A stretch of 33,728 nt of DNA from an uncultured Clostridia bacterium. GTDB taxonomy: Bacteria > Bacillota > Clostridia > Oscillospirales > Ruminococcaceae. The stretch covers positions 1-33,728 of the forward strand of contig CANRJZ010000004.1 of assembly GCA_947631055.1 (NCBI GenBank), written 5' to 3'. A model generated the notes under the pieces. The model was not told the DNA's origin, did not search any database, and worked only from the letters and a program-made list of their open reading frames with translations. This document shows positions 12,089-13,674 of this stretch, piece after piece. Within the stretch, counting starts at the first letter, position 1, and each line of letters begins with the position of its first letter. The position numbers and the translations under genes are program-made.

Positions 12089-12194
12089 GCAGGCTGAGGC
12101 AGGCTGAGCCTGCACGCGTATATCCTCTTATAAGATAGCGCGGGTAATAATATTATTCTTGGACTATTTTATTATAGTTAGGTAAATTATAATA
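12089..12194. repeat. Dispersed intergenic repeat, copy C
   Basis: GCAGGCTGAGCCTGC palindrome then GCGTATATCCTCTTATAAGATAGCGCGGGTAATAATATTATTCTTGGACTATTTTATTATAGTTAGGTAAATTATAATA. Confidence 0.85.
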
Positions 12195-12228
12195 AAAGAA
12201 TTCCCGCTGTATAAGCGGGAATTCTTTT
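12194..12228. terminator. Bidirectional intrinsic terminator
   Basis: AAAAGAATTCCCGCT-gtata-AGCGGGAATTCTTTT, 15-bp perfect stem, directly abutting repeat copy C. Confidence 0.85.
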
Positions 12229-12234
12229 ATGGCG

Positions 12235-12897
12235 TTATTCTATGCATATTTCACAGGGCTCGTAATATCCGTTTTGTATATCTTCATTCGTAAGCCGCCG
12301 TTTATTGCTTTTATCCTTGATTATGTAACAGTCTTCCGTATGATATTTTGTTCCCGAATCGGTCACGTAATATTTCCCGTAATATTTTTGCTCCATAGCT
12401 TCATATACGGATACGGCGGCGGTAACTGCTGTCAATATGACCACAACAGTACAAAAAAGAGTCAGGAGCTTATGTTTAGCCAATTTACGGCGTACCCGCG
12501 TAAAAATATTCGGGTTGAGAAGCTTGTGAACAAATTCGTTGGCTTCGTATTCTTCGGTAACATCTTTGCCGATGACAGGAGATGTACTGAGATGACCGCA
12601 GAAAATATGCCCCGTCTCATGCGCAAGAACTATGCATTTTTCCTCTTCGGAAAGACCTTCATTCACGAATACTATTCTGTAATTGCTGTCCGCATATGTA
12701 AAACCGCGGGAATTGTCGGCATAGTTCCGTAATTTCAGTTCGCTGATAATGGTATCGGAATCTTCATTGCTGCCGAATTCGGCTACTATATATCCAAGCT
12801 GTTCAAGGATATTTTTAAGAGTATCCGAGTTTATCCCGGCAGGACGGTATTTGTTCAGGAACTCCTTGGCTTTGATGCTTCCGTTATTTTTTGACAT
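12235..12897 (-). CDS. Membrane-anchored ImmA/IrrE-family metallo-endopeptidase with C-terminal Cys/His module
   Basis: CIVLAHETGHIFCGHL (HExxH), VTEEYEANEF; RVRRKLAKHK followed by one TM (LLTLFCTVVVILTAVTAAVSV); C-terminal GTKYHTEDCYII...GYYEPCEICIE. Confidence 0.85.
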   Translation of the reverse strand: MSKNNGSIKAKEFLNKYRPAGINSDTLKNILEQLGYIVAEFGSNEDSDTIISELKLRNYADNSRGFTYADSNYRIVFVNEGLSEEEKCIVLAHETGHIFCGHLSTSPVIGKDVTEEYEANEFVHKLLNPNIFTRVRRKLAKHKLLTLFCTVVVILTAVTAAVSVYEAMEQKYYGKYYVTDSGTKYHTEDCYIIKDKSNKRRLTNEDIQNGYYEPCEICIE

Positions 12898-13048
12898 ATT
12901 TTACGACCTTCCCCGAAAAGCAACGGGTATACCCCTTTCAGCGTTAATGCCGCTTATTATAAAACGGAATTATATACTATTCTGTGGTTTATGCTCGCTA
13001 AGCGCATATCAGACCGCAAATGTTTTACGGTCTGATACAGGGCGGATA

Positions 13049-13597
13049 TTATTTGCCTATCCTGCGGCCTCTCATCTTTTTGATAACGCCGTCTACTTTT
13101 TCACTGCGGGAAGGCTTTTTCATAAAGTTCATTCCGTCAAAAGACTTGACGACCGATTCGCCGGTCTGATTGGTGCAGCGGGCATATTCGATCATTATAA
13201 GCGTTTTGATCGTAGTCAGGGCGTTTTCATCAAGTTTGTTGAATACGTCCGGATAATTTTCTGAAAGCTTGAGCATCATTTCATCGGTAGCTGTATCTTC
13301 CGAGTTTATGCCGGCAATAAACTTGTGCGGGAAAGCGTCGCTGCCTCTTATAAGATCTCTGGTCTCGGACTTGTTGTCAAAATAGAAGATAAGCGAAAGG
13401 TAAGTATTCCAGCCCATAGGTCTGTCGCTGCGTTCGATGGCTCCGTAAGTCTGCCTTGAAACTCCTATTATGCTGGCGAGATCGTCCTGTGATACTCCCG
13501 CCTTCATTCTAAGAAACGGAAGATCGGATCGGAGTTCGGCAATATACTTCTTTTTCTCTGCCTCGGATATGATCGTTTTCAGTAAACGCTGTTCCAT
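13049..13597 (-). CDS. XRE-family helix-turn-helix regulator
   Basis: LRMKAGVSQDDLASIIGVSRQTYGAIERSDRPMGWNTYLSLIFYF; SD GAGGTG upstream of ATG. Confidence 0.88.
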   Translation of the reverse strand: MEQRLLKTIISEAEKKKYIAELRSDLPFLRMKAGVSQDDLASIIGVSRQTYGAIERSDRPMGWNTYLSLIFYFDNKSETRDLIRGSDAFPHKFIAGINSEDTATDEMMLKLSENYPDVFNKLDENALTTIKTLIMIEYARCTNQTGESVVKSFDGMNFMKKPSRSEKVDGVIKKMRGRRIGK

Positions 13598-13619
13598 AAT
13601 AACACCTCACAATTATTTT

Positions 13620-13637
13620 AAGTAAAAAATATTACTT
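13620..13637. promoter_or_regulatory. Candidate operator, inverted repeat AAGTAA-N6-TTACTT
   Basis: Lies between the XRE promoter -10 and the XRE start codon, near the predicted transcription start. Confidence 0.4.
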
Positions 13638-13645
13638 CGCTCATA

Positions 13646-13674
13646 ATTATACATTGGGTACTGCAAAATATCAA
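13646..13674 (-). promoter_or_regulatory. Sigma-A-like promoter for the XRE-ImmA operon
   Basis: On the minus strand: TTGATA, 17-nt spacer, TATAAT. Confidence 0.7.

Follow-up and report, generated by a model that had tools for sequence, protein, structure and literature searches.

The window analysed here is a stretch of 33,728 nucleotides from an uncultured Clostridia bacterium. On its minus strand a gene for an XRE-family regulator is followed by a gene for a metalloprotease of the M78 (ImmA/IrrE) type. The features of the locus are listed from the promoter onwards.

13646..13674, minus strand: sigma-A-type promoter, TTGATA-17-TATAAT, 5' of the XRE gene, matching 11 of 12 consensus positions
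13049..13597, minus strand: XRE-family regulator of 182 amino acids (HTH_3, 29.5 bits, cut-off 23), found with the protease in the genus and the family
13430..13495, minus strand: core helix-turn-helix of the regulator, residues 35-56, VSQDDLASIIGVSRQTYGAIER
13175..13237, minus strand: C-terminal helix of the regulator, residues 121-141, KLDENALTTIKTLIMIEYARC, first half of the signature shared by partner regulators
13133..13153, minus strand: VVKSFDG, residues 149-155, second half of the signature and predicted recognition or cleavage region
13007..13037, no strand assigned: 14-bp inverted repeat (hairpin) between the genes, within approximately 100 bp of extra spacer
12235..12897, minus strand: membrane-anchored M78 (ImmA/IrrE-type) metalloprotease of 220 amino acids (PF06114, 34.8 bits, cut-off 22)
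12526..12717, minus strand: M78 peptidase domain, residues 61-124, with HETGH (12607-12621) and Glu116
12469..12498, minus strand: basic stretch RVRRKLAKHK, N-terminal to the membrane helix
12403..12468, minus strand: transmembrane (TM) helix, residues 144-165, from hydropathy and AlphaFold2
12238..12372, minus strand: YHxxxC...PCxxC tail module, predicted to be extracytoplasmic, residues 176-220, with weak similarity to the Ada metal-binding domain
12192..12230, minus strand: terminator-like hairpin directly 3' of the protease gene

The promoter is the top-scoring one in the region and promoters of the TTGACA/TATAAT type occupy the same position at most homologous loci, which bears out the strong promoter of the original prediction. 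That prediction also described a two-gene minus-strand operon. Both open reading frames (ORFs) are in place, but 151 bp and a hairpin lie between them, and in this genome the two genes may or may not be co-transcribed. The spacer is 49 bp in two close relatives, the two genes overlap or nearly overlap in other relatives, and co-transcription is likely in the relatives. The extra spacer of approximately 100 bp (window positions 12925-13048) is without a counterpart in the two closest relatives. It is present as a single copy in the genome, so a repeated mobile sequence was rejected, and a second, internal promoter for the protease gene was rejected because the TATAAT-like boxes there are not accompanied by a -35 element.

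As predicted, an HExxH protease stands beside an XRE helix-turn-helix (HTH) protein; both score above their Pfam cut-offs and the catalytic residues of the protease are intact. We found that the protease belongs to the M78 family by domain score, which exceeds the curated cut-off, and by its catalytic motif, HETGH at residues 93-97 plus the downstream Glu116. Pfam Peptidase_M78 was matched by 30 of 32 homologues at E values up to 0.01, and IrrE/PprI came top in a structure search with the protease. Across the 32 homologues there is no variation at H93, E94, H97, G182, H186, C190, C215, and C218, while Glu116 does not vary in alignments A1 and A3 (8 rows each) and is nearly invariant in A4 (32 rows). 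Since HExxH is invariant in 32 of 32 homologues and Glu116 nearly so, catalysis by the protease appears to be under selection.

The protease contains one TM helix, placed by hydropathy at residues 144-162, with a mean KD value of approximately 2.5. There are six K/R and no D/E among the 15 residues before the helix and two K/R and two D/E after it, a bias that is repeated in all eight homologues examined. AlphaFold2 returned a well-modelled M78 domain, a continuous helix spanning residues 143-172, and a folded tail (mean pLDDT 89). The single TM helix proposed to follow a basic stretch is therefore upheld by hydropathy, by the modelled helix, and by the positive-inside charge bias, and the topology prediction, suggested at the outset as a check, did return a TM helix. 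In homologues whose partner XRE is of the window type (group a, below), identity to the window protease is 54-87% in the M78 domain and 40-80% in the tail but 0-32% in the TM region, which diverges yet remains hydrophobic, as expected for an anchor joining two constrained domains. The charge bias supports an orientation with the peptidase inside and the tail outside. An independent line points to the same topology, since the tail module is otherwise carried by lipoproteins, secreted enzymes, and pilin-like proteins.

The short Cys/His domain that had been placed outside the cell is present as a tail whose His186, Cys190, Cys215, and Cys218 are all invariant (n=32 homologues), and this module recurs on extracytoplasmic proteins. 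Used as a separate probe, it was present in 37 of 118 Clostridia genomes. Most of the tail proteins without an M78 domain, among those read, carry an N-terminal signal peptide, a lipobox, or a TM region, and they include lipoproteins, secreted MBL-fold proteins, a ChW-repeat protein, and TadE-like proteins; those without a clear signal were an ORF truncated where the fetched stretch ends, another whose start is uncertain, and L253, which has no visible signal. At L234, L235, L239, L252, L254-L257, and L073 the YHxxxC...PCxxC module lies C-terminally on secreted Clostridia proteins (MBL-fold, nuclease-like lipoprotein, TadE-like), mostly with no Pfam model for the tail itself.

The window tail had no match in Pfam and thus does not fall within the Ada metal-binding family PF02805. 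The related tail of L007 scored 21.4 bits against PF02805, below the cut-off of 23, and PF02805 was matched by 6 of 32 homologues at E below 0.01. The likeness to Ada resides in the C-terminal PCxxC half of the tail; the best PDB Ada matches align over this half only, and the tail offers one His and three Cys. We rejected an assignment as an Ada domain given that the similarity is partial and the full Ada ligand set is missing. With its Cys/His residues the tail could coordinate zinc or be active in redox chemistry, and a zinc-binding tail would echo the zinc control of IrrE (PMC7907104).

Besides the window we collected 38 proteins with the M78-TM-tail architecture and judged their HTH neighbours by sequence reading. 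An HTH gene lies immediately upstream in 31, overlaps or lies one gene further in three more, and is not in view in four, one of them at a contig edge. The pairing, whose absence had been named as an argument against the proposal, is therefore strongly conserved (34 of 38, counting overlapping genes). When 29 XREs (the window's, 26 other partners, and the orphans L018 and L025) were scanned with Pfam, HTH_3 was matched in 25. Within the window's family the protease was matched in 13 of 398 genomes, and full-length close copies are found in the genus (G333, G371, G180) as well as in G370 and, twice, in G079. Every one of these copies has an XRE gene of the window's type as its upstream neighbour. 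A wider profile search matched at least part of the profile in 48 of 291 Clostridia genomes. We also took a sample free of query selection, comprising all 71 PF06114 hits of 68 other Clostridia genomes. A recognisable HExxH ORF was present in 62 of these, a TM region followed the protease in five of the 62, and all five carried the tail (none had the TM region without the tail), while L175 of the same sample matches the tail pattern but has no TM region. Roughly 7% of M78 hits in the class thus have the M78-TM-tail architecture.

The pair is conserved across genus, family, and class, always in one gene order, and as in ImmR-ImmA the XRE gene lies directly upstream of the M78 gene on the same strand. 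XRE and protease distances are correlated (Mantel r 0.87, n 11), a result that relatedness alone could also give. G079 contains two complete XRE-protease pairs within a few kb (L223 and L220 are second-copy loci), and in G496 a pair is accompanied, at a distance of a few kb, by a further protease gene immediately upstream of which we saw no XRE. Our data indicate that the M78-TM-tail architecture recurs in numerous Clostridia and in some mobile elements of these bacteria.

The partner XREs fall into three groups, namely (a) XREs of the window type, whose body is longer, (b) small XREs, which carry EIKKQYKSVRxFAxxxGIPQTTV, and (c) assorted XREs, several of which lie at loci with integrases (L056, L063, L064, L007). 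Although the HTH regions of groups a and b clearly differ, their C-termini share LDxxxxxT[IV]...ExxRC followed by VxxFxG. A C-terminal profile HMM trained on five group b C-termini only recovered 12 of 12 group a partners (E values from 1.6e-5 to 4e-13) and matched several group c partners more weakly. Of 46 genes that precede soluble M78 proteases, the same HMM matched none, the best of these reaching E 0.42; partners and soluble-M78 neighbours were compared by Fisher test, with some non-HTH upstream genes among the soluble-M78 controls. In 148 genomes a profile of this C-terminal region gave nine whole-region matches besides the window, all of them beside a membrane-anchored protease, although five of the nine had been in its training set.

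The same search of 148 genomes gave five strong matches to the first half only (L277-L281). These XREs end before VxxFxG and have no adjacent protease, and the group a orphan L025 is likewise without VxxFxG. The sole exception is L018, in which VxxFxG is present with no adjacent protease. Hence VxxFxG is missing in 6 of 7 orphan XREs; it occurs together with the protease in 18 cases and alone in one, and both are lacking in six (p about 4e-5, ignoring kinship). Such a pattern would be expected if VxxFxG were the segment at which the protease recognises or cuts the repressor. The L018 XRE (L018:3923-5155) is 67% identical in the best segment to that of the window, with a VxxFxG-type segment and a Lys-rich end, and it is followed by a sigma-factor-like gene and a TM protein whose Cys-rich N-terminus resembles an anti-sigma factor. 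The C-terminus of the window XRE was modelled with low confidence (pLDDT 40-70 beyond approximately residue 150). Taken together, the comparisons of these regions support a specific pairing of M78-TM-tail proteins with one kind of XRE C-terminus, and because partners have this region in common, they indirectly support the idea that the protease acts on the neighbouring XRE.

The window pair is flanked on one side by genes for a thioredoxin-reductase-like protein and a glutaredoxin and on the other by genes for a polysaccharide deacetylase and IreB; L016 and L017 keep the thioredoxin-reductase flank and not the other. No integrase or mobile gene was found near the pair among the genes seen or Pfam-scanned, which belong to metabolism and housekeeping. 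The original prediction that no integrase lies beside the pair thus holds for the genes seen or scanned in the window but not for its relatives, since mobile genes lie near L007, L056, L063, L064, and L267, as expected of a switch from an integrative and conjugative element (ICE) or prophage. In the record of Monoglobus pectinilyticus (L267) a phage-like region contains the XRE, a tyrosine recombinase, and the M78-TM-tail protein, which is annotated simply as an ImmA/IrrE family metallo-endopeptidase. The viral contigs L077 and L078 also carry an M78-TM-tail protein. Annotated phages contained no relative of the window protease and gave one short tail match for L010. The related suggestion of a stand-alone pair fits the window but does not describe the class as a whole, some members of which belong to mobile elements or lead larger gene clusters.

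At L218:8-6270 an XRE-M78-TM-tail pair heads a cluster of zinc-ribbon TM proteins, a YukD-like (ubiquitin-like) protein, a ThiF-type E1-like protein, a UBC-like/FHA protein, and a trypsin-like protease, possibly a ubiquitin-like conjugation system controlled by the pair. At L219:1-6356 the genes after the pair encode a VWA protein and a Tubulin_2 protein, and at L230:6081-13001 a protease-less XRE of the same type is followed by TM, FHA, and radical-SAM genes, so this type of XRE seems to stand at the front of conflict- or envelope-type clusters. In two genomes (L224:4394-5632 and L225:4192-5610) the next gene after the protease, on the same strand, is for a secreted protein whose repeats are of the choline-binding type, perhaps a surface protein subject to regulation. 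The genus has in common an AT-rich element 5' of the promoter. This element was rejected as a mark of a regulon since the genome has no second perfect copy and its four one-mismatch copies come close to the reversed-pattern control. The palindrome AAGTAA-N6-TTACTT after the -10 box was rejected as an operator, having a 7-base spacer in L016 and L017. The genome search with the conserved upstream element identified no regulon or shared operator.

Among known systems, ICEBs1 ImmR-ImmA is similar in that an XRE repressor gene is followed by an M78 protease gene, and in the PDB the XRE profile best matches 7t8i, the XRE-family regulator of ICEBs1. ImmA itself is soluble. In contrast, the window protease has a TM helix and a tail predicted to lie outside, for which reason we file the pair as a variant of ImmR-ImmA, and the window XRE differs at its C-terminus from the sampled partners of soluble M78 proteases. 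In BlaR1-BlaI and MecR1-MecI, a membrane protein answers a signal from outside by inactivating a cytosolic repressor through its metalloprotease, which lies in the cytosol. Their likeness to the proposed switch is one of working, and the window protease is not a member: BlaR1/MecR1 have an M56 protease, another repressor, and a much larger, penicillin-binding sensor, whereas the window protein has an M78 domain and a tail of 45 residues, and structural similarity between the two is at chance level only (E 0.74). The CapP-CapH pair of CBASS likewise joins an M78 protease to an HTH regulator. PADLOC capP matches the window protease at 4e-6 and CapP 7t5t is its best, though weak, PDB match by profile (0.019), but in the window no CBASS genes were seen beside the pair and the protease is membrane-anchored. 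Deinococcus IrrE/PprI-DdrO shares the M78 domain with HExxH and supplies the top structure matches; the window protease has a TM region and a Cys/His tail instead of the HTH and GAF-like domains of IrrE/PprI. XRE repressors are cleaved or displaced by ImmA (ImmR) and by IrrE/PprI (DdrO) (PMC10233336, PMC7907104, PMC10904395).

The pair is probably a derepression switch of the ImmR-ImmA/DdrO-IrrE kind in a membrane-anchored version. Its parts, the intact catalytic motif, the helix, the likely orientation, the recurrence, and the specific pairing are supported by sequence analysis; we infer cleavage, its site, the signal, and the regulated genes. The XRE would repress its own promoter (probably) and perhaps other genes, and the single helix of the M78 protease would anchor it on the inner side of the membrane, with the TM helix and the small extracytoplasmic Cys/His module standing where IrrE has its HTH and GAF-like domains. 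A change at the module or in the membrane (e.g., metal or thiol state, ligand binding, or dimerisation) might then alter peptidase activity, so that an external signal would control the cutting of the conserved C-terminal region of the XRE near VVKSFDG, and repression would be relieved. No ligand was found for the tail. A sensor replacing the IrrE-type domains is plausible because PprI activity is tied to dimerisation and ligand binding (PMC10904395) and IrrE is activated by available zinc (PMC7907104). The simplest reading is that the input may have moved to or across the membrane while the output, XRE cutting, was kept.

Tentatively, and with somewhat less than even confidence, we extend this derepression switch to a class of one-step transmembrane signalling in Clostridia. 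An outside Cys/His module would control a cytosolic M78 protease that destroys its partner repressor, as in BlaR1-BlaI but from the ImmA/IrrE family, with interchangeable DNA-binding domains on one cleavable XRE C-terminus, and with use for chromosomal genes, mobile elements, and larger conflict-like clusters.

It is also conceivable, if rather unlikely, that the protease cleaves the XRE in response to an intracellular signal (DNA damage, free zinc, or RecA) like its counterparts in ICEBs1 and Deinococcus, the anchor serving location only and the tail being structural. Known M78 relatives do answer intracellular cues (PMC7907104, PMC10904395), and some relatives of the window protease lie in elements linked to integrases, for which the usual trigger is damage to DNA. 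However, the protein has no room for the HTH and GAF-like domains of IrrE, residues of the latter being involved in ssDNA binding by PprI (PMC10904395), and a tail with 40-80% identity and four invariant Cys/His exceeds what is expected of a passive anchor. We give a low probability to an anti-repressor mechanism that dispenses with proteolysis, in which the membrane protein binds the XRE C-terminus and tethers the XRE away from DNA. The COG2856 protein Rir is reported to prevent oligomerisation of the repressor Crh without cleaving it (PMC7907104), a membrane tether suits sequestration, and the common XRE C-terminus fits binding as well as cutting; the seeming selection for catalysis, with HExxH in 32 of 32 homologues and Glu116 nearly invariant, argues against it.

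Relatives that adjoin integrases (L056, L063, L064, L267) could suggest the remnant of a lysogeny or ICE switch that lost its element and its function, and this we regard as very unlikely, given that both ORFs are intact, the active site and the tail are conserved, the pair and its promoter are kept in G333, G371, and G180 of the genus and in L016, and the closest relatives have an XRE with 95% identity to it. The least probable reading is an addiction module with M78 as toxin and XRE as antitoxin: COG2856-Xre pairs were once predicted as toxin-antitoxin systems (PMC2701414) and varied chromosomal contexts and tandem copies agree with this, but S. mutans immA expression has little effect on E. 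coli growth, the authors of that study argue against a toxin-antitoxin system (PMC10233336), and the gene order and common substrate-like XRE tail fit a regulator-protease pair.

The pairing of M78 proteases with XREs is itself well known (PMC2701414). What appears new here is the membrane-anchored M78 branch with its tail and the co-varying XRE C-terminus, as we found no account of either in the open-access literature, which is weak evidence of absence. The ImmA/IrrE proteases named in the papers cited above answer cues inside the cell. For the derepression switch, the co-varying XRE C-terminus provides a concrete substrate prediction around VVKSFDG (residues 149-155), with the orphan XREs that lack VxxFxG as natural negative controls. 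A widespread membrane-anchored branch with an outside module would let events at the surface switch repressors in gut Clostridia, including those of lysogeny-type switches.
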